Both the position numbers and the translations under genes were made by a program. Shown here in pieces: positions 19,823 through 46,734 of a stretch of 64,000 nt of DNA. The stretch's first letter is position 1, and each line of letters starts with the position of its first letter. Source of the DNA: Acidimicrobiales bacterium (GTDB taxonomy: Bacteria; Actinomycetota; Acidimicrobiia; Acidimicrobiales; SZUA-35); contig JABDIY010000137.1 of the NCBI GenBank assembly GCA_013003535.1, positions 1-64,000 on the forward strand. The letters run 5' to 3'. A model generated the notes under the pieces. That model was not told where the DNA came from. It worked only from the letters and a program-made list of their open reading frames with translations, and did no database searches.

Positions 19823-22185
19823 CCGTTGTCTATGACCTGCTCGGGGTCCAGAGCAAGGAACACGGCGAAAGAGGCATCGCGCGATACGTTCTGAGCCTCG
19901 CCCTGGCAATCGAGGAGCTCGATCCCAGCGCAATCGATGTCTACCTCGTCCGGGAGTACTTGCCGATACCTGGGGTCATGGAGCCACTGATCCGGTCTGG
20001 GAAGGTTCGGACGTTTCGTGACATGCAGTCCAATCCGCCGAAATCGGGGGTCTTCGTAGTGGCATCACCCTACGAACTCGGGGAACCGCTGGACAGCATC
20101 CTCCCGGACTGGGCCCGCGATGGGCACTGGCAACGCGCCGGAATTCTCTACGACCTGATTCCTATGATCTTCCCAGAGATCTACTTGACCGATCTCTGGA
20201 GCAAGCGCTATCGCGCCCGCACAAACACCGTTGCCAACCTGGACCATCTGTTCGCAATTTCAGAAGCATCGAAGGCTGACGGAGTTCGGTTACTCAACAA
20301 AACCCCGGAGTCAATCACAGTGATCGGAGCTGGGGCTGACACTCGATTTGCCCCACCCCAAGAACCGCAAGCCGACGTACTCTCAGAATTGCAGAGGCGA
20401 CTACCCGACCTCCGAGAGTCCTACCTGCTGTTCCCCAGCGGAATCGAATGGAGAAAGAACCTCATTCGAATGTTCGATGCATATAGCCAACTCCCGGCAG
20501 ACATGCGCGCCGAGCACCAGCTCGTCATGGTGTGTCGGACCAACAGTGCAGAACAGGAAATGCTGGAACACGAGACAAGCACTCGAGGGATACAGAACGA
20601 CTTCTTGGCAACCGGCTTTGTGGATGATGCTGACCTGGTTCGCCTCTACCAAGCCGCCGGGCTTGTGATTTTCCCCTCGCTCTATGAAGGCTTCGGGTTG
20701 CCGGTGCTAGAGGCCAGGGCGTGCGGAGCTCCCGCTATCTGCTCCGACTCGTCCTCTCTCAAAGAGGTCCAACCCGATCCCACTGCGCGATTCGACCCAA
20801 CCGATGTGGATGAGATGACCGCGGTTCTGCAGCGAACTCTCGGCAACCCTGATGAGCTCAAACGCCTGCAAGATGCCGAGATGCCTCCATTCACTTGGAA
20901 GTGGGGGGCCGAGCGAACCCTTCCGGTCCTCGCCGAGCTCGCTCGCCGGTCTAGTACCCGAGGCATGACCAAACCTCGGCTCGCAATCGTGAGCCCGCTG
21001 CCTCCTCAACGATCGGGCATCGCCACCTACACCTACCGTCTTTGCGCCCATCTGGCGAACGAGGTGGACGTCACGGTTCTTGTTGACGACGAGACCTTCG
21101 CCTTGGAAGCGCCCGACGGAGTCCGTATAGCAAAGGTCAAAGAGCTCCTGGCTCTGGAACGGATGGACGGCCGCTTCGACGAAGTCATCTATTTTATGGG
21201 GAATAGCCATTTCCATGTTGCGGCACTGGAGATGCTCCGGCAACGTCCGGGCGCGGTGTTGATGCACGACGTCCGGATGACCGGCCTCTACGAATCGGAG
21301 TACTACCTCGCCGGCGATCGTCTTCCCCAAGGAACCGTCGGGGGGCTGCTCCATCAGCTCTACCCATCTAGATACCGGGACGTCCTATACAAACAAGACA
21401 TCATCTCCCCCACCGTGGCCGATCGTTTCGGGATCACTCTCACAAGAGAGATCGCAGCACATGCAACCAGGGTCTTCACTCACTCACAGTTCGCCGCGGA
21501 CTCCATCATGCTGGACTCCGGTGTTGTTCCCGAAGTGTTGTTTCCCATTCCGGTGCACACTGCCCATTCGATCAACGGTGCTCCCAAGGGCGCCGGCCAC
21601 CCACCGGTCATATCAACTTTTGGGAAAGTCGACCCGGTGAAGCAGCCATTCTTGTTGATCGAAGCATTCGCGCACGTGCGTCAACAATTCCCCAACGCTC
21701 AACTCGTATTTGTGGGTGACCACGACGAGCAACAGGAAGCCGCCCTCCTGGCTGCAATCGAGCGAGGAGGCGTTGGCGATGCAGTTGAAATCACCGGGCA
21801 TCTGAGCGACGCAGAGTACGAAGCCGCGATTGCCGCCACGTCGATAGCGGTTCAGCTGCGGGCATTCACCAACGGAGAGTCATCGGCAGCAGCCGCCGAT
21901 CTCATTGGGAGTGGTGTTCCTGTGGTCGTCTCCCAGCTGGGGGCGATGGCAGAGTTGCCTGAGGATGTGGTCGTGCACGTTGAGCAGCACGCCACCGCCG
22001 CCGAATTAGCCGAGCTCCTCGTGAAGTTACTCGGCGACAACGCTCGGCTTGAATCGATGATGGAAAACGGACGGCTATTCGCCAAGGCGAATTCCTACCG
22101 AGCAGCAAGCGATGCTCTGGTTGAACGACTGTTTCCTGCCAACCCCTGGAACGAGCGAAGGGTCAGTAGCGATGCGTTTCGGTAG
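19819..22185 (+). CDS. Two-module glycosyltransferase (tandem GT4-like domains)
   Basis: GTG start overlapping the previous stop; module 1 RGIARYVLSLALAIEEL...LVIFPSLYEGFGLPVLEARACGAP; module 2 PRLAIVSPLPPQRSGIATYTYRL...ISTFGKVDPVKQPFLLIEAF. Confidence 0.88.
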   Translation: MTVVYDLLGVQSKEHGERGIARYVLSLALAIEELDPSAIDVYLVREYLPIPGVMEPLIRSGKVRTFRDMQSNPPKSGVFVVASPYELGEPLDSILPDWARDGHWQRAGILYDLIPMIFPEIYLTDLWSKRYRARTNTVANLDHLFAISEASKADGVRLLNKTPESITVIGAGADTRFAPPQEPQADVLSELQRRLPDLRESYLLFPSGIEWRKNLIRMFDAYSQLPADMRAEHQLVMVCRTNSAEQEMLEHETSTRGIQNDFLATGFVDDADLVRLYQAAGLVIFPSLYEGFGLPVLEARACGAPAICSDSSSLKEVQPDPTARFDPTDVDEMTAVLQRTLGNPDELKRLQDAEMPPFTWKWGAERTLPVLAELARRSSTRGMTKPRLAIVSPLPPQRSGIATYTYRLCAHLANEVDVTVLVDDETFALEAPDGVRIAKVKELLALERMDGRFDEVIYFMGNSHFHVAALEMLRQRPGAVLMHDVRMTGLYESEYYLAGDRLPQGTVGGLLHQLYPSRYRDVLYKQDIISPTVADRFGITLTREIAAHATRVFTHSQFAADSIMLDSGVVPEVLFPIPVHTAHSINGAPKGAGHPPVISTFGKVDPVKQPFLLIEAFAHVRQQFPNAQLVFVGDHDEQQEAALLAAIERGGVGDAVEITGHLSDAEYEAAIAATSIAVQLRAFTNGESSAAAADLIGSGVPVVVSQLGAMAELPEDVVVHVEQHATAAELAELLVKLLGDNARLESMMENGRLFAKANSYRAASDALVERLFPANPWNERRVSSDAFR

Positions 22186-23101
22186 GGCTTATCGGCGTGC
22201 TCCAAACTCGCCCCTTCGCCCTCTGCTCTACCACATGCATATCCCCAAAACTGCCGGCACGTCTTTGCGGCGGTTGCTCGAATCGCAATTCACAACAGCA
22301 GAAACATTTCCATCCTTACTTTGGGCACAGCACTGGCAACAAACGGATGCGCAGGAACAAAGCCTTCGCCAACGAATTCGTCGCACCGTCGATTACCGCT
22401 TCATAGGTGGCCATTTCGACTATCAGCTCAAAGGGCTCTTCTTACCCCGACCGGTGCGTCGACTAACCGTTTTGCGAAACCCCGAAGATCGGGCCCTGTC
22501 GTTCTACCACCACATCCTCGCCAACACCGAGACCGACTTTTTTGTGGAAGATGCCACCGGCCGGTGGCATGAGTATCCCCGACCATTCCCCTCGTTGGAG
22601 GAAACGTTGTCCCATCCCGTCTTCGCCACAATGTTCTCCAACACGATGTTCCGGCAGTTTGCGATCGACTACAACCCCGAAGAACTTCGTGCAAAACCGC
22701 ATCGAATGGGCCCTCATTTTTCGTTTCCATTCGTCGGCGCGCCACTAAGCAAAGATCTCTATCCACTGGTTCGGGAGCGCCTGGCGAAGACCGTTGTGGG
22801 AATCCAAGAACATTTCTTGGTCTCGCTGTGGCTGTTTCGGTGCACTCTCGACCTGCCTATTCCACTAGACGCCGAGACGAGGGAGCGGCCGGGCAAACAC
22901 CTCGGCCTGAGCGGGCAAAGTGCCGCTGCGCTCGAATTGTTACGACAGCTGAATGTTTACGACAGATGGCTCTATGAGCGCGGGGTTGAACAGTTCCTGA
23001 CTCACGTTCAGACGACGGCAGCCAAGCATGGCCTGACCCCGCCGCGGGGCTTGAACGAACTCGACGCGGATTTTGCGGATCAGATTCGGAGTTGTCCCTA
23101 G
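22172..23101 (+). CDS. Sulfotransferase family protein (heparan 2-O-sulfotransferase-like fold)
   Basis: LLYHMHIPKTAGTSLRRLLESQF (5'-PSB loop), LTVLRNPEDRALSFYHHI (3'-PB). Confidence 0.8.
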   Translation: MRFGRAYRRAPNSPLRPLLYHMHIPKTAGTSLRRLLESQFTTAETFPSLLWAQHWQQTDAQEQSLRQRIRRTVDYRFIGGHFDYQLKGLFLPRPVRRLTVLRNPEDRALSFYHHILANTETDFFVEDATGRWHEYPRPFPSLEETLSHPVFATMFSNTMFRQFAIDYNPEELRAKPHRMGPHFSFPFVGAPLSKDLYPLVRERLAKTVVGIQEHFLVSLWLFRCTLDLPIPLDAETRERPGKHLGLSGQSAAALELLRQLNVYDRWLYERGVEQFLTHVQTTAAKHGLTPPRGLNELDADFADQIRSCP

Positions 23102-31468: not shown

Positions 31469-32248
31469 TCACGTTGGTTGTAGACCTTCGATTTCGATGT
31501 GTGCCTGTTCATAGAGCCAGACGTCGAACCGGTTGAACTCTGAGATTACCTCGCGGGTACGGGGCTTCAGATCGTCGAGACTGGGTCGAGACGGGGTGAT
31601 GTGGGCCCGTGGTCCTCTGCCGCTTGGCACAACCCAGCCGAACCGAGTGGCGAGCTGGGCGTAGAAGTCTTCGATTCGAGCGAGGTCACCAACAACTTCA
31701 ATGCCTGTGGTGAGGTTGAGCAAAGCTCGTTCCGCGTCGGCGGCCGTACAACTCCCGATCGGGGTTTGGGTGTTGGTGCCGCAGAGCTGCCGAACCATTT
31801 GGTTGTCGAAATTGTGGCTGGAGCCACTGGCCACAGCACCCTCCAATCCCATCGAGATGAGATCCCGTTCGACTTCGGACAGCGACTCTGGCGGAACCGC
31901 CGAGAGGTAGTAGTACGCACTGATCACACGGTCGATCGGGTCGCGGAGCAAGGTGAAGTAGCGGGCTCGCTCCAGCCCCAAACTCTCATGAACCCCGTAG
32001 GGCAGGTGGCCGTGCACAATCGTGGTCAGACCTCGCCCAGACCGATTCTGTACTGTTGCCACCAGCTGGTCCGGGACGGCACTTGGCGCGGCGTCACAAC
32101 GCAGGTTTCCCGCCTTCTCAACCTGGCGGTCCAGCGTTTGGAGAACGCTCACTCCCCCGGTCTTGGGTATGTGAATGAACACAAAAGTGCTCCCCATCTC
32201 GGCTGGAGTTGACTGGCCCGGCCTCGAACGGAATCTCGGCAGTCTCAA
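31469..32248 (-). CDS. Sulfotransferase family protein
   Basis: FVFIHIPKTGGVSVLQTLDRQ; YFTLLRDPIDRVISAYYYLS. Confidence 0.85.
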   Translation of the reverse strand: MRLPRFRSRPGQSTPAEMGSTFVFIHIPKTGGVSVLQTLDRQVEKAGNLRCDAAPSAVPDQLVATVQNRSGRGLTTIVHGHLPYGVHESLGLERARYFTLLRDPIDRVISAYYYLSAVPPESLSEVERDLISMGLEGAVASGSSHNFDNQMVRQLCGTNTQTPIGSCTAADAERALLNLTTGIEVVGDLARIEDFYAQLATRFGWVVPSGRGPRAHITPSRPSLDDLKPRTREVISEFNRFDVWLYEQAHIEIEGLQPT

Positions 32249-33480
32249 ACCTCCGAGACCTCCGCGTTCCGGTTTGTCTGGCTGTGCTCCAGGCTGGTCT
32301 TCAGGCGAATTCGGCCCGCGGCCGTTCCCCCGCTCACCACCGAGAATCGCTCTGGCGATTGGTTGCGATGATATTCGACGGTTTCATCGGTGTCCTGCAA
32401 CGCCACGGTCACTTCGAATGACCCTTGGAGAAGTGGCAGATCCTGGACCCGTAGGACGATCTCTCCTACACCGGGTTGGAGCTGACGAAGATCATCGCCA
32501 GCGATGTCCGCGCTGGAAACATTGGCGATGGCCAAACCATCATGGCTGAAGAGCCAGACCCGCAGGCGAACCGAGTCCAGCGGTGATCGACAAACGTAGC
32601 GAATTCTGGTGACCAGCTCATCCCCGGGGCGAAAGCTCTCGGATCCCGACGCCGGAGGATCGAATGCGACGCTGGTTATTTCAACCGGTCGACGATCGGC
32701 CGCTGGCAGCTCGGTCGCCACGCCATCACCATGGCGAATTCCGGTGCGGGCTTCCAGCGCGTCTCGATACACGACAACGCCGTCGCCGGGATCGCCTTCA
32801 TAGATCATCTTGCCGCTGTTGAGGACCACTGCCTTGTTGCAGAACAACCGCACCATGTCGGGCGAGTGAGTAACGATGATGATGGTCCGCCCGTCACGTT
32901 GAAAGCCCCGGATTCTTTCGAGACATTTGCGCTGGAAGGCTTCATCTCCCACTGCCAAGACCTCATCGATGAGGAGAACGTCTGGCTTCAGATTCACTGC
33001 CACGGCGAAACCTAGCCGGGCGAACATCCCTGAGCTGTAATGTTTGACCTGAGTGTCGATGAACGCCGGGATCTCAGAGAAGTCGATGATGTCAGCGATC
33101 ATTTCGTCGATCTGAAGCCTCGAGAAGCCTAAAATCGAGCCGTTCATATAGACGTTTTCCCGGCCGGTAAGGTCGGGGTGGAATCCGGCGCCCAACTCGA
33201 GCAATGCGCTCATCGACCCTCGAACGCGGACGGCTCCCGTATTGGGCCGGATGGTGCCGGAGATTATCTTGAGGAGCGTGCTCTTGCCGCTGCCGTTGTG
33301 ACCCAGGATTCCGACCGTCTCCCCGGCCTGCACGTCGAATGCGACATCGTCCAACGCATGGAATGTCTCGGAATTCCCCCGACCGATAGAGAGCATCCGC
33401 TCCATCAACGAGTTCCCAACGCCGGTCTGGCGCTTGAAGGTTTTGGAGACGTGGTCTACCTCCACTGCCGTGTAGCTCAT
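32245..33480 (-). CDS. Polysaccharide ABC transporter ATP-binding protein with Wzt-type C-terminal domain
   Basis: GILGHNGSGKSTLLKIISGTIRPNTGAVRVRGSMSALLELGAGFHPDLTGRENVYMNGSILGFSR; ~170-aa C-terminal beta domain. Confidence 0.95.
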   Translation of the reverse strand: MSYTAVEVDHVSKTFKRQTGVGNSLMERMLSIGRGNSETFHALDDVAFDVQAGETVGILGHNGSGKSTLLKIISGTIRPNTGAVRVRGSMSALLELGAGFHPDLTGRENVYMNGSILGFSRLQIDEMIADIIDFSEIPAFIDTQVKHYSSGMFARLGFAVAVNLKPDVLLIDEVLAVGDEAFQRKCLERIRGFQRDGRTIIIVTHSPDMVRLFCNKAVVLNSGKMIYEGDPGDGVVVYRDALEARTGIRHGDGVATELPAADRRPVEITSVAFDPPASGSESFRPGDELVTRIRYVCRSPLDSVRLRVWLFSHDGLAIANVSSADIAGDDLRQLQPGVGEIVLRVQDLPLLQGSFEVTVALQDTDETVEYHRNQSPERFSVVSGGTAAGRIRLKTSLEHSQTNRNAEVSEV

Positions 33481-34403
33481 CAGAGCGCCTCACCAAAGTC
33501 GCCTTCGAGACGAGCGAATACCTTGATCCCGACGAGGCAGAGGACCAGGGAAGTGAGCAGAGAGATAGCCAGCATTGTGATCAGGAACCCTTGACCTCTC
33601 ATCAGAAGTTCGAAATGCGCTTCTTGATCGGCGGGAGAAAGGTTGGATGGGTTGTAGAGAACCCTATGGAAAGTGACCATGGGTGCGATCATCGGGTTGA
33701 GCACGGTCAGCCACTCGGCTCGCTCCCCGCCCCAGTCGCGCAGGGCGCCTGCCACGAAGTCGTACTGGTAGACGATCGGTGTGAACCAGAAGAGCGAAAG
33801 CAGTGCCAACTCCAGAAAGTGGCCCGTGTCTCGGTAGTACACGTTGTAGGCGCTGAGAATGAAGCCCAGGCCCGTTGCGAGCAAGATCGTGGCCAGCAGC
33901 GCAGGAATGAGCATCCACAGCATGCTCCATGCCGGCACTTGACGGAAGACGGCCAGGCCGATCACCAGGACCACGATTTGAAAGAAGAAACTGATGATCG
34001 ATGCACCAACGGCGGCGATCGGCAGAATTTCCCGAGGGAACCACACCTTCTGAACCAGCGCTCCGTTGCCGATGATCGAAGACGTGGCACTTCCCAATCC
34101 CACCGAGAAAAGGTTCCAGACGAGAAGACCAGACAGAAAGAGCAGCCCATAACGCGGCGGTCCTCCCTTGAGAACGAAACCGAACACGAAGCTGAAGACC
34201 AGCAGGTAGAGCAACGGATTCAAAAGGGTCCAGATGAAGCCGAGGAAACTCTCCTTGTAGCGGACTTTGAGTTCCCGGCGAACCAGGTTCCCCAGTAGTT
34301 CTCGGTACTCCCAAACATCTCGGAGGCGCTGGGGCAGCGACCGTGGCACGCTCCCGTGCTCGATGAGAGGGGGAATTCCATCCGCCGATACTGCTGCAGT
34401 CAC
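33480..34403 (-). CDS. ABC-2 type polysaccharide exporter permease (Wzm/TagG-like)
   Basis: LVRRELKVRYKESFLGFIWTLLNPLLYLLVFSFVFGFV; directly upstream of the Wzt-like gene on the minus strand. Confidence 0.94.
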   Translation of the reverse strand: MTAAVSADGIPPLIEHGSVPRSLPQRLRDVWEYRELLGNLVRRELKVRYKESFLGFIWTLLNPLLYLLVFSFVFGFVLKGGPPRYGLLFLSGLLVWNLFSVGLGSATSSIIGNGALVQKVWFPREILPIAAVGASIISFFFQIVVLVIGLAVFRQVPAWSMLWMLIPALLATILLATGLGFILSAYNVYYRDTGHFLELALLSLFWFTPIVYQYDFVAGALRDWGGERAEWLTVLNPMIAPMVTFHRVLYNPSNLSPADQEAHFELLMRGQGFLITMLAISLLTSLVLCLVGIKVFARLEGDFGEAL

Positions 34404-34454: not shown

Positions 34455-35867
34455 TCAGCTTGCGGTTCGGGGGGTGCGGGTAGCGAAGAAGATCGTTCGT
34501 GACCCGCCGGTGAGGGTCTCGCGGCGACGCACCTCGAACCGTTCGCCGAGGAGACGTTCAAAGTTGTCCAGGGTGTAATGGCTATAGATGCCCGGGCGTT
34601 TGTTGCGGAGCAGTTTCTGTACCATCTGGTCATTCTCGTCAGGGAACTCGATCACCAGATTTTCCGTAGAGTCGGCGAGAAGATCGAGTTGTTGCTGCAG
34701 CGGGATGTTGAAGGTCAAAGCCAAATGGTGAATGACCGCCAGATAAATCACGGCGTCGGGGCGGCTGCGGTGAAACAGCCCGGGACGCTCTGAACCCCGC
34801 CAGCCAACGCCGCCCCCGGCGGTGGAGAGATCCACGACCAATGGAGTGATCCGGTTTGCTTCTACCGAAGTCTCGGTCCGGAGCTGCTTGTAAAGCTGGT
34901 CGATCACAAGTTCGTCGGCATCCATGGCCAGGACCACATCGGCATGGTTGGCGGCGATTCGGCTGAACATCCCGTCATTACAGCCAACATCCCATACGTG
35001 GCCCAGTGCTCCAGCACCGGCGAGACTGTCGTCGACAAACGCCGCCTTCTCGGCCAGGCTCCTGGATTCGTAGTGGCCACGATCGCTGTAGTCGGACCAG
35101 AGCGATTCGTCCAGACCAGTGTCCATGCTTTCCACGAGTTTGCGCGTCTTGGCCACCGTGGCCAGAAGGAGTTCCGTCTTCATTCCGGACTCCGCCACGT
35201 CTTCAGCGACCCCCTCGTCAGAATCGGCAAGTTTGGCCTGCGCCAACGCGTGAAACAAGACGTGGGTGAAGCGGCCCCGCTGGCGTTTGAGACGTAGCGG
35301 CCCCAGGAGACCCTTCGCCTGATCGACGGGAATCCCGTGTACGGAGCCTCGCAGGAACGGTTGAAACGAAACTCCGGCGTAGGCCTTCAACATCAGCGGG
35401 TACAAAAAAAGTTCGCAGAACTGCTGGTAACCGAACCAGGGATCAGACCGCTTACGCGGTTGAAATGATCCAACGTCGATGAAGATCGGTGTAGTTCCCA
35501 CGAACTGGATGTTGTAGGACGAGGCGTCCTTTACACCAACTCCAGCCAGGGCGCCGGCCCGAACCAAATCCAACTGGAGAAGCGCGGCGTCTTTGAGCAT
35601 CTGGAACGACCATTCGAACGGAAACGTGATCAGATCCAGTTTCGGGTGGCGCAGGATCGAGGTGGCGGGGGCAACATGATCTTCGACCGCCATGAGTTCT
35701 GATTCGATGACAGTGCCCAGCTGGATCTGGGATTCAACGAAGGGCCAGACGGCGACTCGATCGGACTCACCCATCTCCGAAAACAGTCGATACACACTGT
35801 CATCAGCCACGACGACTCGGCTGAGAGGGTCTCGAAACGACCCGGAGTCCGCTTCGAGGAGAGCCAC
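34455..35867 (-). CDS. SAM-dependent methyltransferase, NoeA-like
   Basis: SGSFRDPLSRV, FPFEWSFQMLKDAALLQLDLV..GVKDASSYNIQFVGTTPIFIDVGSF; C-terminal GHVWDVGCNDGMFSRIA. Confidence 0.75.
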   Translation of the reverse strand: MALLEADSGSFRDPLSRVVVADDSVYRLFSEMGESDRVAVWPFVESQIQLGTVIESELMAVEDHVAPATSILRHPKLDLITFPFEWSFQMLKDAALLQLDLVRAGALAGVGVKDASSYNIQFVGTTPIFIDVGSFQPRKRSDPWFGYQQFCELFLYPLMLKAYAGVSFQPFLRGSVHGIPVDQAKGLLGPLRLKRQRGRFTHVLFHALAQAKLADSDEGVAEDVAESGMKTELLLATVAKTRKLVESMDTGLDESLWSDYSDRGHYESRSLAEKAAFVDDSLAGAGALGHVWDVGCNDGMFSRIAANHADVVLAMDADELVIDQLYKQLRTETSVEANRITPLVVDLSTAGGGVGWRGSERPGLFHRSRPDAVIYLAVIHHLALTFNIPLQQQLDLLADSTENLVIEFPDENDQMVQKLLRNKRPGIYSHYTLDNFERLLGERFEVRRRETLTGGSRTIFFATRTPRTAS

Positions 35868-35870
35868 GGC

Positions 35871-36062
35871 TCAGGAGGCAGTTTCGGAAGCGAGTGGTTC
35901 GCCGACGTTCTCGACGACTTCGCCTTCGGGCTTTGCGCCCTTCCCAAGGCGAGCCTTCAAACGCCGCATCCCCATTTTCCCGGCGACGGAGAGCCCTGCG
36001 GCACCACCTGCCACTGCGGAAGCGATCATGCTGCCGGTTGCAGCGTCTAGGTAAGAGAACAT
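35871..36062 (-). CDS. Small one-TM membrane protein with N-terminal YLDAATGS motif
   Basis: MFSYLDAATGSMIASAVAGGAAGLSVAGKMGMRRLK...; ends 3 nt before the NoeA-like gene. Confidence 0.7.
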   Translation of the reverse strand: MFSYLDAATGSMIASAVAGGAAGLSVAGKMGMRRLKARLGKGAKPEGEVVENVGEPLASETAS

Positions 36063-36142
36063 TCCCTAAACGTTAGGGCACTGGCGCAGGCAACCCGTGG
36101 CACTATGCAGGATCAACGATTGTTCGATCCGGCTCAGTTGGC

Positions 36143-37876
36143 TCATCGCGGGAGTGCATCGAAGAGAGGTTCGGCCGATTGCCCGGGCGGTACAAAAGAG
36201 TGGAACCGGTCCACGGCTGCTTGAAACTGCTGGGGATCGACGGACAGGATCTGTGTCCGGCCCGGCGGCGGTTCGCCGTTGAGTCGATGACCCGCCATCC
36301 GTTCCGCAGGTAATTCACCGATTCCCATCACGTCCATGATGGTGGGAAACACGTCGGTGATCTCGGCCAACCGGTCGTCCTCAACCCCGACCGATTGACC
36401 GGGGTATTTCACGAACAGGGGGACCGCCGCCAATTCTGCGGTGGTTTCCGGCAGCAGGGTTCGGGCGGGGAGACCTTCTTGGAGCGCACCACCATGGTCC
36501 GCGACAACCACGATCAGCATCTCATCCATGCGCCCGGTGGCCTCGACGCTATCGAGGAACTCCCCCAGCAACATGTCGGTGAGTTCGAGCTGCATTGCAT
36601 ACATCAACACGCCGCGCCGATGATCGGGCCCAACCGGCCAGGTGTTGTCGTCAAGCCACGGGATCCACTCGGCCTCATTGCCTGACCCGTCGGGCCGAAA
36701 ATACCAGGGCGAATGCGGTAACAGCACGTGTTCGTAGTAGAAGGCCGGTTCGTCGAGGGTTCCGATCTGGCCGGTCAGGGATCGGAACTGACCTTGTAAA
36801 TCTTGCTCCAGATCGTCCCACGGGAACTCCCAATCGTCCTCGGCGGTGACGTCGCGGGGTCGGGTGACCCGGGGTTGCCGGAACCGAGTCCACTGGTTGT
36901 TTATGTTGGGCACCCACCGCTGTGCGACTCCGGGAGGCAGAACCTGGTTCTGAACGACGATCAGACTGTCGTCCAGCAACAAAGACCAACCAAGATCGGG
37001 AAACTCGCATACGTCGCTAGGGCACAATCGTGTAACGCTCTCCCATGCCTCGACCCGATGCGTTGTAGCGAGTTCGGTGAACAGATTGCTGGGATAACTG
37101 GACACGGTGGGTGCGGGATCGTCGGTCCTCAGCTCACCGGAGAGAAGCGCCGGCACCGCCACCGATGTCTGCGTGGAGACCGTTGTTGCATTCCGGTACC
37201 ACGTGCTCATTTCAGCCAACCGGGCGAAGTTCGGGAGCCGCGCCCGGTCGATCTGACCCTCCTCATCCAACATTGTGGCGAGTGGCAGTTCGTCGAAAAC
37301 GATCAGCGCGACCGAGGTGTCGTTCAGGGCATCCGGAAGACTTCCCGATTCCGATGAGCTGCTGCCGTTCCCACCGAGAAGCCCCGATACGGGGCTGAGG
37401 CCGAGGAATAACACCGGGAAGATGAACGAAATCCAACCGAGATTGATCATCAGCCGTTGAACCAGGTCCATCCGCAACGCGACCCAGGCCAGGATCGAGA
37501 GCAAGATGACGAGCGGTAACGCCACTTCGATTTGAAGATCGAGGGGCCGCCACGCGTACCCCGCCAAGGCCACGGCGGTGAGCAACGCCATTCCAACCGG
37601 AAGCAACGGGCGGGCTAAGCTCGGTGCCAGACGCTCGACTGCGAAAGCGATCGACCAGACCGCCGCCGCCGGGCCAAGGAAGATCAGCAGTGTGAGACCA
37701 ATGATGTCCGCAGTGCCGCTGCGGTGAGCTACGAAGAACGTGGGATTCTCCCCGATCAACCCGAAAAAGGGCTGGCTGAGTCCGATCCCGAAGATCCCGA
37801 GCAGGATGAGGAATAGTCGCCAATCCGCCGAGAGACCCCGGTGTACTACAGCGCGGTCTCCAGTCTCAGCCTGCAC
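36143..37876 (-). CDS. Membrane-anchored alkaline phosphatase/sulfatase superfamily protein
   Basis: N-terminal TM helices; IVFDELPLATML..., NATTVSTQTSVAVPALLSGE, MLIVVVADHGGALQEG, DVFPTIMDVMGI. Confidence 0.8.
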   Translation of the reverse strand: MQAETGDRAVVHRGLSADWRLFLILLGIFGIGLSQPFFGLIGENPTFFVAHRSGTADIIGLTLLIFLGPAAAVWSIAFAVERLAPSLARPLLPVGMALLTAVALAGYAWRPLDLQIEVALPLVILLSILAWVALRMDLVQRLMINLGWISFIFPVLFLGLSPVSGLLGGNGSSSSESGSLPDALNDTSVALIVFDELPLATMLDEEGQIDRARLPNFARLAEMSTWYRNATTVSTQTSVAVPALLSGELRTDDPAPTVSSYPSNLFTELATTHRVEAWESVTRLCPSDVCEFPDLGWSLLLDDSLIVVQNQVLPPGVAQRWVPNINNQWTRFRQPRVTRPRDVTAEDDWEFPWDDLEQDLQGQFRSLTGQIGTLDEPAFYYEHVLLPHSPWYFRPDGSGNEAEWIPWLDDNTWPVGPDHRRGVLMYAMQLELTDMLLGEFLDSVEATGRMDEMLIVVVADHGGALQEGLPARTLLPETTAELAAVPLFVKYPGQSVGVEDDRLAEITDVFPTIMDVMGIGELPAERMAGHRLNGEPPPGRTQILSVDPQQFQAAVDRFHSFVPPGQSAEPLFDALPR

Positions 37877-38007: not shown

Positions 38008-39888
38008 CTAACCTCGAGTTTGGGCCTGATTGAAGTAGCGGTCCGTGGAAGCCAGTTCCACCGCCAAACCAATGTCGTCGACGGCGATCAGGCGAGCAGA
38101 CCAGTACTCGATGGAGGCCTCACTCGGTGCGAAACCGAGAATGCGGGTGTACATGAGGATGGTGCGGTCCCGGCGGGATTCGGCAGAGTAGTAAAAGTTG
38201 GCAGCAACGGCGGTTCTACTGGCCTGCCGGGAATCGAGAAGGCCAACCCAATACGCCAGACCTCCTGCATCAGCCGGGCGGCCGAGGATGTCGGTGTAGA
38301 GCTGGCTCACAAATCCGCTGTTGGTTCCACCGGCCGTAAGGAAGTACTCCTCAGAAGCAAAGAAGTAGGACCCGATGGCGTCGATCTCCGCTCCGTCGCG
38401 AAGTGTCTTGCGCCAGTAGGCTTCGCCTGCGGCGTCGGCTGGACGACCGAACGCCGTTTGATACAGCTGGGCCAGCATCACGCCGGCGAATTGATCACTT
38501 TGAGCCAACTCGGTGGCGAGGCCTGATCGACTTTGATCCGAGTAAACCCTGCTGGCCCACTCCTGTCGCGTTCCGGCATCGGGCTTTGCCCCGAGGAATG
38601 TCTCGGCGAGAGAGTCGACATAGTTGGAGATCTGTTCGGTCTCACCGCGCACGATCGGGCCGAGCGTAAACCAGTCGGATTTCAGGCCCAACGTGGTGCG
38701 AGCGACCCAGCCGGTCTGCGTTACGGTTCCCTGCTCGAATCGGAACTCGATGAGAGACACGCGGCCGCCGTCGGCTCCAAGGCCGTTCCGCGCCGTGACG
38801 ACAAGTTCGAGGAGCTTCCCCTTACCGAACTTGCGTTCCAACGAAGAGACGTCGACCACCTTGGTCCACTGCCGATTGGGGTTGGCGGTGGTGGCGTCGC
38901 CGTCATCCTGGACCGACGGAAAGGTTCCCCCGGCGGTGAATCCGCCGGTACTGGAGGAGAACTCGGTACGGGCCACCCGCCCGGCGGAGTTCAGACGAAC
39001 CAGTCCAGCCGTTGCGGCGATGGCGGCATCAGTACGAGGATCAGTGGTGGCGTAAATACTGCCGCCTGCGGCTTGGTGGAATCGTCCCTTGAACACTTGG
39101 CATCGGGTGGTCTCACAGGTATCGGCGAAAGGCAGATGGCGAGTATCACCGGCCATGGCATAACTTCGAGCGGCCACGGCCTGCGCCTCGAGTGCCGGAG
39201 CCGGCCAGCTGGCCGGAGACTCGTTTGGAACAACGCCGCGCAGGTATTCCTCGATCGTGGTCACGTTGACCGTTCGGCGGGTTCCGGCGTGTTCGGCGGC
39301 AACGATCTCACCTGAATACCAGGTTCGGGCGCTGCCACTTCGGCACACGTGCAGCATCGACTCATGCGAGTCAGTTGCGGCAGGACTATCGGGAACCAAA
39401 CGCACGTAGTCGTGTTGGGCGATCCCGCCGACCAGGGTCCAGGGGCCGGCACACGATGTGGCATAAGAAACCAGAAACTGCGAACCGTCATGGCTGAGCC
39501 GCACCGCTCCGTTGGAAATGTAACCCAAGTCTTCATTACCGGGGCCCCGCAAGAGGATGTTTCCCGACTCCAAGCCAACGGTGGTGCTCTGGCCGGCGTT
39601 GTAACTGAGGTCCGCCCGAACCCGATTTGGGGCGACCATGTTGTCCGTCGGAACAGCACCAGCCACGGTTCCACCATAGAAGTGGTCGAGAATCTGGGCG
39701 CTGGACCAACCCTCATTGGCGTAGCCATATGCCCCGTATTGGCCGAGACCCCGACCGTGACCCCAGCCCCGACCGGTGATGGTGATCGTGGCCGTTTCGT
39801 CGGCGGCGCCGACAGGCGGCGACCACGCAAACGGAAGTAGGAGTATTGCAGCAGCGGCGGCGATGAGCCGGAGGCGGAGTGAACGCAT
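38008..39888 (-). CDS. Secreted SpoIID/LytB-domain protein with C-terminal DUF4214
   Basis: ITGRGWGHGRGLGQYGAYGYANEGWS; EEYLRGVVPNESPASWPAPALEAQAVAARSYAM; LYQTAFGRPADAAGEAYWRKTL / LYTDILGRPADAGGLAYWVGLL. Confidence 0.93.
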   Translation of the reverse strand: MRSLRLRLIAAAAAILLLPFAWSPPVGAADETATITITGRGWGHGRGLGQYGAYGYANEGWSSAQILDHFYGGTVAGAVPTDNMVAPNRVRADLSYNAGQSTTVGLESGNILLRGPGNEDLGYISNGAVRLSHDGSQFLVSYATSCAGPWTLVGGIAQHDYVRLVPDSPAATDSHESMLHVCRSGSARTWYSGEIVAAEHAGTRRTVNVTTIEEYLRGVVPNESPASWPAPALEAQAVAARSYAMAGDTRHLPFADTCETTRCQVFKGRFHQAAGGSIYATTDPRTDAAIAATAGLVRLNSAGRVARTEFSSSTGGFTAGGTFPSVQDDGDATTANPNRQWTKVVDVSSLERKFGKGKLLELVVTARNGLGADGGRVSLIEFRFEQGTVTQTGWVARTTLGLKSDWFTLGPIVRGETEQISNYVDSLAETFLGAKPDAGTRQEWASRVYSDQSRSGLATELAQSDQFAGVMLAQLYQTAFGRPADAAGEAYWRKTLRDGAEIDAIGSYFFASEEYFLTAGGTNSGFVSQLYTDILGRPADAGGLAYWVGLLDSRQASRTAVAANFYYSAESRRDRTILMYTRILGFAPSEASIEYWSARLIAVDDIGLAVELASTDRYFNQAQTRG

Positions 39889-39970
39889 GTGTAGGCCATC
39901 GGACCTACGGCGCGCCAGTGAAGGGGTTCCCCACAACATTTCAAAAGTTCAGCCGAAATCCCGTCAAATA

Positions 39971-40013: not shown

Positions 40014-40982
40014 TTACTCGATGAGTGTGGCCAGGGCTTCGGCGGTCTGGAGCGAGAACCGGCGTGCGGCTGCTTCCCCCAGGTGGGTGAAGTCCACGAA
40101 GTCGTTGTTGGTGAAGTCCTCGGCCACCGAAACCACGGGCACGTCCAGTTCGGCACCAAGGGCGGTCACGGTGGCATGAACCAATTCATGTTCGGCCGGG
40201 CCGGATCGATAAAGGTCGGTGAAACGAGGTGGGACCGGGAGTTCGACGAGAACAACCGCTATCCCGGCAGCAAGCAATTGGTCGACGGTTCGGGCAATCG
40301 CCGCAAGATCGTCTCGGTCCAGAACGAAAGGCGTGATCCGACCCCGCATCTCCGCTTGGCGTGATGGTGCAACGACGCGTCGAAAATCGATGCGTTCGCC
40401 TCGGTCACCCATATTGGTCTCAGCCTCCCCTCGGTCCGTCAATCGCTGGTTCGCGATCACACCTGCTAGGGCGGATGGCTCTCGAAGAATGGTGCGGTTC
40501 CTGACCAACGCCGAAAACGATGCTGCGGTGCGCTCCACCGACGCCGAGGCCCCGTCCTTGGTGTTGAGTGCCGATCGATACGCGGACTCGGTGGCCTGGC
40601 CGTACGCGGCCGAGATATCCAAGGCCGAGAGCCCCCACACCACGGTGGACACGTTCAGACGGTCCATCACTTGATCCAACAACCATGGTTCCACCACCAC
40701 CGGGACGCCACCGTTGATGCCGGCGTTGTAGACAGATACCAGGTTGAGCTGGGCCGAAAGGACCGATGGAACGAGATCCTGCTGGGCCATGGACGTTCCC
40801 ACCACGACCAGACTCGGATCTGATCCCAGCGCATCCATCTGATCGATCTTGAGTTCGACAGCGTAGTCATGCCAGCGAAGGGCCTCAGAACCCGGAGCTA
40901 CCGCCACGCGGGCGATGCCCTCGGCGACGCCAGCAACTATCAGCGCGGCGACGAGGAACCGCAGCACCGCCACTCGACTCAT
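40014..40982 (-). CDS. SGNH/DltD-like extracytoplasmic protein
   Basis: SLVVVGTSMAQQDLVPS; C-terminal DFTHLGEAAARRF (DxxH); signal-like N-terminus. Confidence 0.65.
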   Translation of the reverse strand: MSRVAVLRFLVAALIVAGVAEGIARVAVAPGSEALRWHDYAVELKIDQMDALGSDPSLVVVGTSMAQQDLVPSVLSAQLNLVSVYNAGINGGVPVVVEPWLLDQVMDRLNVSTVVWGLSALDISAAYGQATESAYRSALNTKDGASASVERTAASFSALVRNRTILREPSALAGVIANQRLTDRGEAETNMGDRGERIDFRRVVAPSRQAEMRGRITPFVLDRDDLAAIARTVDQLLAAGIAVVLVELPVPPRFTDLYRSGPAEHELVHATVTALGAELDVPVVSVAEDFTNNDFVDFTHLGEAAARRFSLQTAEALATLIE

Positions 40983-42547
40983 CACGGGCCGATCCCCCGC
41001 TCCTTGAACCGCTTGGTCAGGAGTTGTGTAAACCGGCTGGCGCCCGCCTGGTTGAGGTGGGTCAGGTCGGCCCAGAGTCCGTCATCGTCCAAATCACCGC
41101 TGAGGTCCACGAACGTTGCGCCGGTTGGTGCGATCACCTCACGTTCGAGCTGATCGAACGACGCAGCAATGGTTTCCCTGCCACCGGGGATGAGCTCCAC
41201 CGCCTCGGGGCTCACCGTCATTCCAACGATCACCACCTCAGCGCCCCACGCCTGGAGCTGCGCTACGACCTCGGCTGTGACCGCCGCCCGATCGCCACAG
41301 AAGGTGGGATCGGCGAACTGATTGGTGTAATCGGGGATCTGCGCGGCGATCGCATCTGGGTTCCGGGAGTTTCCCTTCGGCGCATTGCCCATGTTGGCAT
41401 TGGGGAACCCGGTGTCCCGGCCGAGCAAGATGTCGAGGTTGTCTACGCCGGCGAACCAGCCAGAGGCGGCAAATGTCATCTGGCGGTTGGCCAAGCGGTC
41501 CGAGAACTGTTCGGCTCGCCCCGGTGTAATGCAGGTTCCGAGAAGATCGACCGGCCCCATGAGCCACACGATCGTGGTGGGTGAGGCATAGCGATACACC
41601 TCGGGTACCCAAAGCTGTTGTACCTCTGCCAATGACCCCGGCAAGAAAGCATTGCCCACCGACACCCCCAAACCGCTGGACAGGTCCGATACCTCGATCG
41701 CGGCACCGGCTTGGGAGCTTCCAAGTACCACAAGGTCCACCGGGGCCAGCGGATTGCGCAACCACCGATATGCCGGCAAGGCCGAGTAGAAATGGAAGAG
41801 ACGCGTCATGATCGATCCGCTCAACAAGCGGTCGACTTCCGCTACCGATGCCGATGCGGTAGATGTCAATGCCAGAAGGTCACCCAACGACGGATCGTCG
41901 ACGGCTATCGGGAGAGCATCGGGGGCCAAACAGCCAGGCTGGAACAAGGTTCTCTCAAACAACGATCGTCCCAAGGCGCGCGCAGGAGACGAGCCGATGA
42001 AGTCTTCGGGTGGGGAGTCGGCGAGTTTGGTTTCCAGCCCACTGGTCACAACAAGAAGTCGAGATAACGCATCTCGCCAGGTCTCGACGTCCACTCCACA
42101 CGCCCTATCGAGCTCATCCAAGAGTTGAGTCAATTCCACGAATGAGGGGCGAACGGATTCAGGGGCGGCGTTGGCCAGTGGTTCATAAACGAAGGCCGGA
42201 AGAACGCCCTCCATGGCGATCACCTGATCCGCGTTAATCGGATCGCCCGGCTGTAACCAGTTCGTTTCTACCGCCTCGGGCAGGGCTTCGTCCGGACAGG
42301 TAACGGCTTCGGACTCGAAGCCGTATTCGTCTATGGTCACGGTCCGCTCGCAACCCGAGTCGAAAACGACAACGCTCTCCGTCGGCGCGCCAACTGTAGC
42401 TATCACCCGATCAGCCACGTCATAACCGCCCTCTACTCCCGAGCCACATGCGGAGACGAGCAAGACCAGAACAAGGCTGATGGAGACGCGACTCTGTGAT
42501 CGCCGAACTCGGTCGAAGGCAGGAGGCGGGGGCGGCGGAGGCGACAT
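40982..42547 (-). CDS. SGNH-like lipoprotein, partner of the MBOAT protein
   Basis: Lipobox LVLVLLVSACGSG; LVVLGSSQAGAAIEVSDL; DLTHLNQAGASRFTQLL; start overlaps MBOAT stop. Confidence 0.7.
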   Translation of the reverse strand: MSPPPPPPPAFDRVRRSQSRVSISLVLVLLVSACGSGVEGGYDVADRVIATVGAPTESVVVFDSGCERTVTIDEYGFESEAVTCPDEALPEAVETNWLQPGDPINADQVIAMEGVLPAFVYEPLANAAPESVRPSFVELTQLLDELDRACGVDVETWRDALSRLLVVTSGLETKLADSPPEDFIGSSPARALGRSLFERTLFQPGCLAPDALPIAVDDPSLGDLLALTSTASASVAEVDRLLSGSIMTRLFHFYSALPAYRWLRNPLAPVDLVVLGSSQAGAAIEVSDLSSGLGVSVGNAFLPGSLAEVQQLWVPEVYRYASPTTIVWLMGPVDLLGTCITPGRAEQFSDRLANRQMTFAASGWFAGVDNLDILLGRDTGFPNANMGNAPKGNSRNPDAIAAQIPDYTNQFADPTFCGDRAAVTAEVVAQLQAWGAEVVIVGMTVSPEAVELIPGGRETIAASFDQLEREVIAPTGATFVDLSGDLDDDGLWADLTHLNQAGASRFTQLLTKRFKERGIGP

Positions 42548-43950
42548 CAGAACTGGAAATACACGAAAGGGCGGGGCGAACCGCCGGAAAACAGTACAAC
42601 GCCCACGACCGCAGCGGAGACCAGCGCCCCCGCAATTTCTGGGCGGCGGCGGACGGCGGCGATGGTGATCCAGTCCAAACGGGCGGCCACGTCGATACAC
42701 ACCATCGTGGCGAAGGCTGCAGCCACCAACATGAGGTCCGCTCCGCTGGATACTCCGCTCTGGAAAGCCATGGCCCGGAAGACCTTCACGGACGCACCAA
42801 GGTCCTCGGCGCGGAAGAAGACCCATACGGCGCATACGAGCATGAACGTGATGGTGACTGCCGGGATATCGGTGAATCGGAGCGGACGATCAGGAACCGA
42901 ACCATTCCGCACGAGCCGATGAATGACCAGCAACAGACCGTGCAGAGCACCCCAAATCACGAAGTTGAACGATGCTCCATGCCATAGACCGCCGAGCAGC
43001 ATCGTGAGCATCAGATTGGTGTACGTGCGGACGGTCCCTCGACGGTTCCCGCCCAGGGAGATGTAGAGGTAGTCGCGCAGCCAGTTGGACAAGGAGATGT
43101 GCCATCGCCGCCAGAACTCAGTGATGTTTCTGCTCAGATATGGCTGGGCGAAGTTGAGTGATAGCTCGATGCCCATGAGTCGCGAGACGCCACGCGCCAT
43201 GTCTGTGTAGCCCGAGAAGTCCCCGTAGATCTGAATTGCGAACGCCGCGATTCCCGTCCCCATCGCAACCCACGACATCTCACCGGGGGCTGCGAAGGAG
43301 CGGTCCACGACGTCAGCGACGCCATCAGCCAGCACCACTTTCTTGAACAGGCCAAGAAGAATCAGTGTGAGGCCCGAGGTGATTTGATCTGTTGAGACAC
43401 GACGGTTCAGCTCCTGGAGCTGGGGTAGGAGCACGTTGGCCCGCTCGATCGGGCCAGCGACGAGTTGGGGGAAATAGGCGACGTAGGTTGCAAAGGTCAC
43501 CACGTTTCGGACGGGCCGTAACCGGCGTCGGTAGACGTCGATCGTGTACGACAATGTCTGGAACGTGTAGAAACTGATCCCTACCGGCAACACCACCTGG
43601 AGAAACGGCCGGTTCGGTTCCGCCCCGGTTCTACCAATCAGGTCAACGAAAGAATCGACGAAGAAGTTCAGATACTTGAAGATGCCCAGGATCCCAAGAT
43701 TGACGACCAGCGAGGCGATCAGCAGCAGCTTGCGTGCATGCGCCCCGTCGGCTACTTCCAGACGACGGCCGATCGTGTAGTCGACCACCGTGCTGATGGC
43801 GAGAAGGCTGAGAAACCGCCAGTCCCACATCCCATAGAAGAAATAGGACGCCACCAGGACGATCGGATTTCTCAGCCGGGGTGGTGCGCCCCAGTAGAGC
43901 GCCAAGACAACCGGGAGGAAAATCGCAAATGCAATCGAGTTGAACAGCAC
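42547..43950 (-). CDS. MBOAT family O-acyltransferase (AlgI/DltB-like)
   Basis: LFNSIAFAIFLPVVLALYWG; VLPVGISFYTFQTLSYTIDVYR; LPQLVAGPIERANVLLPQ; EFWRRWHISLSNWLRDYLYI; LLGGLWHGASFNFVIWGALHG. Confidence 0.96.
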   Translation of the reverse strand: MLFNSIAFAIFLPVVLALYWGAPPRLRNPIVLVASYFFYGMWDWRFLSLLAISTVVDYTIGRRLEVADGAHARKLLLIASLVVNLGILGIFKYLNFFVDSFVDLIGRTGAEPNRPFLQVVLPVGISFYTFQTLSYTIDVYRRRLRPVRNVVTFATYVAYFPQLVAGPIERANVLLPQLQELNRRVSTDQITSGLTLILLGLFKKVVLADGVADVVDRSFAAPGEMSWVAMGTGIAAFAIQIYGDFSGYTDMARGVSRLMGIELSLNFAQPYLSRNITEFWRRWHISLSNWLRDYLYISLGGNRRGTVRTYTNLMLTMLLGGLWHGASFNFVIWGALHGLLLVIHRLVRNGSVPDRPLRFTDIPAVTITFMLVCAVWVFFRAEDLGASVKVFRAMAFQSGVSSGADLMLVAAAFATMVCIDVAARLDWITIAAVRRRPEIAGALVSAAVVGVVLFSGGSPRPFVYFQF

Positions 43951-44043: not shown

Positions 44044-46734
44044 CTAGGTCACGAGCCGGTAGTAGCTGGGACTGGCGATCATGTTGGCCGCAACGGTGAG
44101 ATCATCGGTTTTCAGAAGCATCCCGGCCCAGTTTTCACGGTCGGCTTCGGATGGAGCCGCACCGGCAACCCGTGTGTACAGCCGGGTAGCACGGTCCCGC
44201 CTACTTTCGATCGAATCATAGAAGCCGGCAGTCACTTGAGAAGGGGTGGCCTTGCCGCTGGTGAGCAGCCCGGCCCAGTACGCCCGACCCGAGGCATCGG
44301 GGCTCCGGTGCAGAAGTGATGCGTAGAGTTTGTCCACATAGCCTTCCGCTCCACCCGAGCGTTGGAAGAGCTCGCGGGAGCCATAGAAGTAGACACCCAT
44401 GTCCCGAATCGAAAGCTGCCCGGTGTTCAGAAGATTGCTCCAGTACGCCAGACCTTTGGCGTCGCCGGGACGGCCCAGAGCGCTGGCGTACATGTCCGCC
44501 ACGGTCGAATCGGTGAAACCGCTCGTCCGGACCATGGCCGATCCGAGTGCCGTGGTTCCTCGGAAGTCGGTCTTCCAGCGCCAGTGGTCCAGTTCGTTGG
44601 TCCCGGGGGCCCGGCCGAGAAGATTCCGGAACACCGCGTCGATGTAGCGAGCGTCGCTGCCCTGTAAGAATGAAGTGCCAGTGAGGTCATAGCCGGTCAG
44701 GACTGCATCAACGATGGCATTGGTTCCGATGTTCGTGGTGCTCGACACGACAGGACGCTCGTCGCCGAAAGTCCACCACCGCCCCTCGGTATCAACTACC
44801 CATCCGCCGTTGAGATTGGGGCCGGCCACCACTGCGGTAGGACGGGACGGTACAACATCGCCGAAACTCGTTGCCGAACCGAAACCGATCACCTCGCCGA
44901 TGTGGGTCAGGACGTAGCCGGAGGTTCCAGATGGCCAAACCACGATGTCGATGACGTTGCCAACGGGTCGAACCCGCAGCGATCCTGCCGGTGTGTTGAA
45001 CACTGGGAACAACGTTCCCGCCGAATTGACGGTATAGCCCACCTTGGCGTCGTTCACGTCGCCGGCGACCACTCCGGACCCTCTGGAGGATCGGTCCTGC
45101 ACCTGGCCGCCGAACCCATGCAGGTACCCGTCAGCTGTTACGACATAGCCGCTTTTGCCGCTGTCCCGAACGATGAGGTCAACGGGGTTCGCGCCGCCGG
45201 GCTGACCGCCGACCGCCGGAGCATCTCCGTAGGGACGAAGTGTGCCGTTCGAGGCCAGGACATAGCCCGCGGTCGCTGTGCCACCGATCGCGATAGCAGG
45301 TGCAGCTGCAGGAGGATTGGTGGGCGCTGCCTGGCCCAGCGCTGGCCGCAGGCCGCCCCACACGTCAGCGGCGAGAAGCTTGGGCCCGAAATCGTCGCCC
45401 ACAATTCCATCCTGGGCATAGGGAGGGCTGCCGGCGTGAAGAGGCGTGAACTTCGCCTTCATGTCACTAACTACCGGCATGGTCCAGTTGCCCGGACAAG
45501 ACGTCACTCCGAGATCACGGTGGCCCATGATGGTGGGAACCTTGACATACTCGCTGGAGGGGTGTTTGAGCACGCCACCGATGGCGGTGTTCTTCAGCAA
45601 CGTTGTCCCATTTGGATCCACACCATGAAGGCGCAACTTCCATGCACCCAGCGCCTGAACCGCTTGCAGCTGAGCACTGCTGGGCCGGGCAGGAGCTGGG
45701 CTCTTGACGTTGCTTTGGTGCTGACCCAAAAGCGCTACAGCGAACGTGTTGTCGTTGAATCCACGAGAGTGCCCACCGATCACCGGGCTGGCAATGCCAC
45801 CCGATCGCCCTTCCCAGAGCGTCCCGAATTTGTCTACCAAGAAGTTGTACGCCACATCACACCAGCCCCGGGTGCCGGTATGAAACCGATGGATGCCCTG
45901 CAACAGCTTGGGCACCTCGGCCTGGGAGTAGTTGTTGGTGGTGACCGTGTGATGGACCACCATGGCGCGCAGGCTGTTGGTATACCGTGGCCCATCTTCA
46001 CATCCCGAGTTCTGTCGTTGATAACCGGGACTGCCCCATTCTGAGTTGGAATGGATCGTGGGCTGAGCACCCCAGGTGGCTGCCACCTTGGCGCTCGCAC
46101 TGGGAGAAGAGATCAGCGATGACGAAGCACCCGGAGCGTCCAGGGCCTCGACCCTGACCGCCGATACATCCCCGTCCATCAAGACAACCTCAACGTGCTT
46201 AGCACCTTCTCCTACCCAGATCGGCCCCACCGCCCCCGCCCCCTCGGCTGCCGCGGATCCAGAGCCCTCGCCGCCAGGAAGGCCATCAGGACCCTCTTCT
46301 CCGTCGCTGTGAAGGAGTGCCCACTCGCTCCAACCGTCTTCGTCGCCAGAGCGAATTGCCATCTGGGTGTGGACCACAGGATTCCCATCCGCCCCCAGGG
46401 GTTGAACGATCACCATTTCCGACACACCGTCGAGCGCCACTGCCGTGGATGGCAACGGCGTGGATTTCGCCAAGATCGGGTGGTCATCAACGTGCTCGTC
46501 ATCGCCGTCGGTGTCCGCACCGGCCGCGAGGGCGATGAGTTCATCATCGGGTGTCACCGAGTGATCCAACGCGGTCGTCTGCTCGGTGATACGGATCTCG
46601 TCTGTGTCCGAGCCGGTCTGGTCCGAAAGCGCCTGGGCCGGGCCCGGCAAAAAGGCGGCGACAGACGAGATGAGCAGGGCAAAGGTCGCGAAGGTGGCTC
46701 GTACTGATCGCCGTTGAGAAAGAAAAGTCATCAA
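44044..46734 (-). CDS. Secreted PGRP/N-acetylmuramoyl-L-alanine amidase-like protein with propeller-like repeats and C-terminal DUF4214
   Basis: MVVHHTVTTNNYSQAEVPKLLQGIHRFHTGTRGWCDVAYNFLVDKFGTLWEGRSGG; GYVLASNGTLRPYGDAPAVG; MYASALGRPGDAKGLAYWSNLL. Confidence 0.93.
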   Translation of the reverse strand: MMTFLSQRRSVRATFATFALLISSVAAFLPGPAQALSDQTGSDTDEIRITEQTTALDHSVTPDDELIALAAGADTDGDDEHVDDHPILAKSTPLPSTAVALDGVSEMVIVQPLGADGNPVVHTQMAIRSGDEDGWSEWALLHSDGEEGPDGLPGGEGSGSAAAEGAGAVGPIWVGEGAKHVEVVLMDGDVSAVRVEALDAPGASSSLISSPSASAKVAATWGAQPTIHSNSEWGSPGYQRQNSGCEDGPRYTNSLRAMVVHHTVTTNNYSQAEVPKLLQGIHRFHTGTRGWCDVAYNFLVDKFGTLWEGRSGGIASPVIGGHSRGFNDNTFAVALLGQHQSNVKSPAPARPSSAQLQAVQALGAWKLRLHGVDPNGTTLLKNTAIGGVLKHPSSEYVKVPTIMGHRDLGVTSCPGNWTMPVVSDMKAKFTPLHAGSPPYAQDGIVGDDFGPKLLAADVWGGLRPALGQAAPTNPPAAAPAIAIGGTATAGYVLASNGTLRPYGDAPAVGGQPGGANPVDLIVRDSGKSGYVVTADGYLHGFGGQVQDRSSRGSGVVAGDVNDAKVGYTVNSAGTLFPVFNTPAGSLRVRPVGNVIDIVVWPSGTSGYVLTHIGEVIGFGSATSFGDVVPSRPTAVVAGPNLNGGWVVDTEGRWWTFGDERPVVSSTTNIGTNAIVDAVLTGYDLTGTSFLQGSDARYIDAVFRNLLGRAPGTNELDHWRWKTDFRGTTALGSAMVRTSGFTDSTVADMYASALGRPGDAKGLAYWSNLLNTGQLSIRDMGVYFYGSRELFQRSGGAEGYVDKLYASLLHRSPDASGRAYWAGLLTSGKATPSQVTAGFYDSIESRRDRATRLYTRVAGAAPSEADRENWAGMLLKTDDLTVAANMIASPSYYRLVT

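Follow-up and report, generated by a model that had tools for sequence, protein, structure and literature searches.

In the 1990s, noeA and noeB were reportedly characterised as nodulation genes affecting host range. On pSymA of Sinorhizobium meliloti (L136), the gene order is nodL, a 71-aa gene for an SP-YLDPGTGS protein, noeA and noeB, and the 71-aa gene carries only the label hypothetical protein in PLSDB. The same gene set is present in Rhizobium sp. T136, where noeB is annotated as sulfatase-like. According to the main text of a 2022 paper, Lani_1194 and its named homologue NoeA combine a kinase-like part and a methyltransferase in one protein with conserved neighbours (Lani_1193-1194-1195), one of which has an alkaline-phosphatase fold, the fold also given for NoeB (PMC9758233). 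Both activities are likewise united in WbdD of Escherichia coli O9a, which acts on an exported glycan by phosphorylating its end and then methylating that phosphate (PMC3482155).

Here, we analyzed a related locus in a 64,000-nucleotide stretch of contig JABDIY010000137.1 from an Acidimicrobiales bacterium (the window). A first-pass annotation had listed three successive minus-strand genes, a 3-nt spacing between a 63-aa gene and a methyltransferase gene, and the peptides MFSYLDAATGSM in the small protein and SGSFRDP and FPFEWSFQMLKDAALLQLDL in the methyltransferase. All three open reading frames were recovered in place, the peptides are present in the translations, and the distance from the stop codon of the small gene to the GTG start of the NoeA-like gene is exactly 3 nt, while 80 nt separate the NoeB-like gene from the small gene (Table 1). 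The genome (4.0 Mb, 221 contigs) contains one copy each of the small gene and the NoeA-like gene.

Table 1 Features of the cassette and adjoining genes in the window.
Feature	Position	Strand	Remarks
NoeB-like alkaline phosphatase (AP)-superfamily membrane enzyme (PF00884)	36143..37876	-	577 aa, GTG start; Thr237 at nucleophile position
63-aa YLDAATGS small gene	35871..36062	-	ATG start; predicted single-pass membrane protein, motif probably outside, basic tail probably inside
NoeA-like kinase-like + methyltransferase protein	34455..35867	-	470 aa, GTG start
Protein-kinase-like N-terminal domain of NoeA-like protein	35118..35867	-	residues ~1-250; R27, K113-D114, N119, D131 invariant (n=57)
Class I SAM-dependent methyltransferase C-terminal domain of NoeA-like protein	34458..35105	-	residues ~255-470; D-x-G-x-N-D-G at 293-299
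-10-like element TAACGT	36070..36075	-	7 nt 5' of small-gene ATG; TANNNT at equal spacing in 12/12
Wzm-type ABC-2 glycan exporter permease (neighbour)	33480..34403	-	51 nt past NoeA-like gene; outside conserved cassette
Wzt-type ATPase, C-terminal carbohydrate-binding domain PF14524 (neighbour)	32245..33480	-	PF14524 match 5e-8; outside conserved cassette
Sulfotransferase-like protein (neighbour)	31469..32248	-	overlaps Wzt gene; probable end of transcript shared with Wzt

The pSymA set comprises the same three families in the order small gene, noeA, noeB, and its small protein reads AHA followed directly by YLDPGTGS. In the window, by contrast, the NoeB-like gene lies 5' of the small gene (in other genomes it is usually downstream), nodL is missing, and a Wzm/Wzt exporter follows. 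S. meliloti NoeB shares the PF00884 domain and a Thr at the same position with the window enzyme, although the two proteins are only weakly similar (26% over 145 aa). Since the kinase-methyltransferase reading was published in 2022 (PMC9758233), the present finding is a confirmation and an extension of it. The locus had been taken for a poorly characterised envelope-modification unit; it is indeed a conserved unit, but not a wholly new one, as the main text of PMC9758233 already covers the kinase-methyltransferase protein and its neighbours. The same text does not address the motif or topology of the small neighbour, NoeA-free pairs, fusions or a promoter, and the role of the small protein appears to be the new part of the finding.

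Recurrence of the three families

The distribution of the cassette was examined in genome samples of the window's class (n=119) and phylum (n=297). NoeA-like genes were found in 22/119 and 34/297 genomes, respectively, the latter including one weak match to the methyltransferase half only and one gene cut by a contig end. Independently, a search using only the small protein as query (E <= 3e-5) identified it in 30/297 phylum genomes, and all 30 fall within the 34 genomes with a NoeA-like gene (Fisher p = 4e-37). The small gene is located directly upstream of the NoeA-like gene on the same strand in 21/21 loci of the class, 24/25 of the remaining phylum and 75/78 named loci from Actinomycetota, Alphaproteobacteria, Gammaproteobacteria, Planctomycetota, Binatia and Acidobacteriota; a sulfatase-like (PF00884) gene adjoins in 18/20, 21/24 and 63/73 loci of the same three sets. 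Up to 1.5 kb from a NoeA-like gene there are 65 sulfatase-like genes (425 kb of sequence within 3 kb), compared with seven in the 734 kb beyond 3 kb. No small gene was found more than 600 nt from a NoeA-like gene in 80 loci, and two NoeA-like copies (L043, L115) have no small gene nearby.

The locus counts, the Fisher test and the low distal background rule out a chance pairing of the three families. Gene-neighbourhood analysis across phyla thus bears out both the proposed three-family unit and the idea, put forward in the first-pass annotation, that the small membrane protein accompanies NoeA. With its same-strand small gene upstream of the NoeA-like gene and an adjoining Thr-type AP-superfamily membrane enzyme, the window locus almost certainly represents the small protein-NoeA-NoeB cassette in an actinobacterial version. 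A phage origin was rejected: phage records gave no match, and only two relatives occur in 2.9 million viral contigs. On two contigs labelled Bifidobacterium breve (L029, L030), the genes are ~52% identical to those of the window and closely resemble those of Ilumatobacteraceae-type loci; these contigs probably stem from mislabelled metagenome bins.

The two enzymes of the cassette

The NoeA-like protein combines an N-terminal protein-kinase-like domain with a C-terminal class I methyltransferase in one chain, so that its earlier designation as a methyltransferase was correct for the C-terminal domain and incomplete for the protein. It is 29% identical to S. meliloti NoeA along almost the entire sequence, in support of the NoeA link drawn before. 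Its AlphaFold model is confident (pLDDT 90). A broad Foldseek search with the whole protein returned mostly methyltransferases, and the N-terminal domain was therefore modelled alone (first 252 residues, pLDDT 87.5). The best 50 PDB matches of this domain are all kinase-fold proteins, although the structural match is weak (TM-score 0.3-0.45). The D-x4-N...D motif (D114, N119, D131), K113 and R27 are invariant in 57 NoeA-like sequences, and Arg occupies the position of the ATP-binding Lys of kinases. The kinase-like domain with this motif and this substitution, the C-terminal class I methyltransferase and the near full-length similarity to NoeA are all features of the NoeA/Lani_1194 family.

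The second enzyme had been described as a membrane sulfatase-like protein, which holds with respect to its family (PF00884 match, 5e-19). Its active site, however, reads T-x-x-A-x-P at Thr237 instead of Cys/Ser-x-Pro-x-Arg, which rules out a true formylglycine-dependent sulfatase. D195, T237, H383, H388, D460 and H461 are conserved in 59 cassette sulfatase-like proteins; the Thr at the nucleophile position is still invariant in a wider set that includes NoeB and further remote members, and its counterpart in a phosphonate monoester hydrolase is the catalytic Cys. Given the missing sulfatase motif and the invariant Thr, the NoeB-like protein is better called a predicted Thr-type AP-superfamily phospho-enzyme, either a transferase or a hydrolase. 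It has a membrane N-terminus, an AP-superfamily catalytic domain and the Thr nucleophile position in common with LtaS and EptA-type enzymes, and LtaS-type structures are among its profile matches, but it scores far under the cut-offs of the corresponding NCBIfam models.

The small protein and its partners

Across 114 distinct sequences of the small protein, the Tyr, Asp and Ser of the motif are present in 113, 114 and 105 cases, respectively. In 24/114 sequences, the residues immediately before the Tyr are AxA, resembling a signal-peptidase site. The octapeptide contains no Lys or Arg, while the 21 aa following the helix contain on average 4.5. Judging from these sequence features, we infer a single-pass protein with YLDPGTGS outside and the basic tail inside. 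Scans of the window protein and other members found no Pfam or NCBIfam model for this protein; the NCBIfam name LAVTG was discarded, as its match (0.011) is below the cut-off of that model. A literature search for the YLDPGTGS motif by its letters yielded no earlier description.

The small open reading frame is very probably expressed, because TANNNT is kept at -13 to -8 from its ATG in 12/12 sequences (the window and 11 relatives); in 5000 shuffles, no single offset showed this pattern in more than 4/12. The -10-like element suggests a promoter and a leaderless transcript beginning at the small gene. Going by gene spacing (gaps of 3 and 51 nt, then overlaps), the window transcript could run from the small gene through the NoeA-like gene, Wzm and Wzt to the sulfotransferase gene.

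A search seeded with the small protein gave 86 matches from Actinomycetota, Alphaproteobacteria, Planctomycetota, Gammaproteobacteria and the Binatia phylum. A NoeA-like neighbour accompanies 61/86, whereas 11/86 have a same-strand AP-superfamily neighbour without NoeA. In six further matches, a CDP-glycerol glycerophosphotransferase-type protein (PF04464) is fused to the small protein or encoded nearby, two carry a fused phosphodiesterase domain (PF01663), and the last six have no recognised partner (L207, L210, L226, L228, L234, L248). In L251, the AP-superfamily neighbour looks like an ordinary sulfatase, and its presence may be a coincidence. Additional NoeA-free pairs of small and AP-superfamily genes occur in L171, L172, L173 and L175, some of which are wider views of matches among the 86.

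Fused forms are known from four (PF04464) plus two (PF01663) genomes. The PF04464 fusions are single open reading frames (L208:385-1689, L212:394-1767, L245:123-1448, L246:1351-2724) consisting of a signal-like leader, a YLDPGTGS/YIDPGTGS-type motif, one helix and the glycerophosphotransferase-type domain; L241 is a split version. In the PF01663 fusions (L249:6-1688, L250:1426-3108), a YIDPGTGG/YIDPGTTG leader and two helices precede an AP-superfamily phosphodiesterase. PF04464 enzymes use cytoplasmic CDP-glycerol. Both layouts fit the predicted topology, with the PF04464 domain placed after one helix and the phosphodiesterase, expected outside, after two. The small and AP-superfamily genes of L171 and L203 are accompanied by a glycerophosphotransferase gene instead of NoeA, and the cytoplasmic enzyme therefore seems exchangeable.

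Proposed role of the cassette and alternative readings

The small protein probably serves as an adaptor, because its gene pairs with AP-superfamily enzymes without NoeA and occurs fused to enzymes; the anchoring function suggested in the first-pass annotation is thus one that we share. On balance, we lean towards an overall explanation in which this membrane adaptor would couple a cytoplasmic phosphorylation/methylation enzyme with a phospho-enzyme outside. The single-pass protein would expose its octapeptide to the outside and direct its basic tail toward the cytoplasm, where the tail may keep the NoeA-like enzyme at the membrane, beside membrane-embedded envelope or lipid-linked glycan intermediates. 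By analogy with WbdD, the NoeA-like enzyme might phosphorylate and methylate such an intermediate; this phosphate-then-methyl chemistry, including its order, is a speculative element of the scheme. The NoeB-like enzyme, with its catalytic domain outside, would transfer or remove a phospho-substituent on the exported molecule, and the YLDPGTGS end might be its docking point. In the window genome, an exported glycan would be the likely substrate, because the small and NoeA-like genes lead into Wzm and a Wzt ATPase that has a glycan-binding domain.

More broadly, we give a little less than an even chance to the idea that YLDPGTGS plus one helix forms an unrecognised, phylum-spanning adaptor, in which the octapeptide docks extracytoplasmic AP-superfamily phospho-enzymes and an exchangeable cytoplasmic enzyme, either a NoeA-type kinase-methyltransferase or one of the CDP-glycerol glycerophosphotransferase type, sits on the inner side, so that glycan modification is coupled across the membrane faces. 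The results tie noeA and noeB to a cassette spanning several phyla and make the 71-aa gene between nodL and noeA a candidate missing component. If the adaptor idea is true, envelope phospho-modification enzymes would be recognisable in many genomes by this small motif, which neither Pfam nor NCBIfam contains.

The exporter genes in the window allow a different reading: a WbdD-like terminator, in which the NoeA-like protein caps the non-reducing end of the Wzm/Wzt-exported glycan with phosphate and methyl, and the carbohydrate-binding domain of Wzt reads the cap. The genes adjoin, Wzt carries PF14524, and the two activities are those of WbdD (PMC3482155). In addition, the NoeA-like family profile matches the WbdD methyltransferase domain at 4e-4, and WbdD is also among the Foldseek matches. 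We nevertheless consider this reading unlikely, as WbdD belongs to a different family with the order methyltransferase, kinase and coiled coil, whereas the NoeA-like protein starts with the kinase-like domain and ends after the methyltransferase, with no coiled-coil ruler. The kinase-methyltransferase family that PMC9758233 describes as WbdD-like is a separate one, and the NoeB-like partner would be left unexplained. Moreover, the linkage to Wzm/Wzt seen in the window is rare elsewhere: only 7/80 homologous named loci have a Wzt relative in their 10 kb flanks. Among 108 genes around 30 cassettes, counted without the sulfatase-like genes, no family dominates, and these mixed outer genes offer no clue to the cassette substrate. 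Together, the 7/80 figure and the mixed flanks rule out glycan export as the general setting of the cassette; the unit therefore stands alone, and its embedding in a glycan-export locus, as first proposed, is a local circumstance of the window.

Returning to the adaptor reading, several observations weigh against it: the NoeA-like copies of L043 and L115 have no small gene nearby, six small genes have no recognised partner, and the fused forms come from four plus two genomes. In addition, the activity assumed for the NoeA-like enzyme depends on its kinase-like domain, which could be inactive because of the Arg in place of the ATP-binding Lys and the weak structural match. As a pseudokinase, the domain would bind substrate or regulate, and the protein would only methylate an envelope glycan or lipid held by the small protein. 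The Arg substitution is likewise noted in the main text of PMC9758233, and the overall match to active kinases is poor. Against this stand the three catalytic Asp/Asn positions, which never vary in the 57 sequences. Dead kinases usually lose these positions, and we regard an inactive domain as improbable.

The small protein itself might also be a substrate or peptide carrier rather than an adaptor, its exposed Y-L-D-P-G-[ST]-G-S end being modified or bearing a group moved by the NoeB-like Thr enzyme. Such a role would be consistent with the near invariance of Tyr, Asp and Ser and with the repeated pairing with AP-superfamily enzymes, but fusion to the enzymes themselves looks more anchor-like and leaves it a minor alternative. 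Finally, the cassette might form a secreted-signal or host-directed system of the kind proposed for the Nod-factor operon and Legionella effectors, in line with the host-range role of noeA and noeB cited in PMC9758233 and PMC4053727. This reading is very hard to reconcile with the occurrence of the cassette in numerous environmental genomes of Actinomycetota, Planctomycetota, Binatia and Acidobacteriota that show no evident link to a host.

Besides the cassette, the window is rich in glycan genes, including glycosyltransferases, sugar nucleotide enzymes and an MBOAT and SGNH pair. Upstream of the cassette, two SGNH-like proteins and a DltB-like MBOAT are encoded consecutively (40014-43950), probably representing an envelope O-acylation set. 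The glycan locus contains two sulfotransferase-like genes (31469-32248 and 22112-23101), both with Pfam matches below the curated cut-off. Three window proteins carry DUF4214 fused to a metallophosphoesterase, a SpoIID/LytB domain and an amidase (14875-16206, 38008-39939 and 44044-46734).
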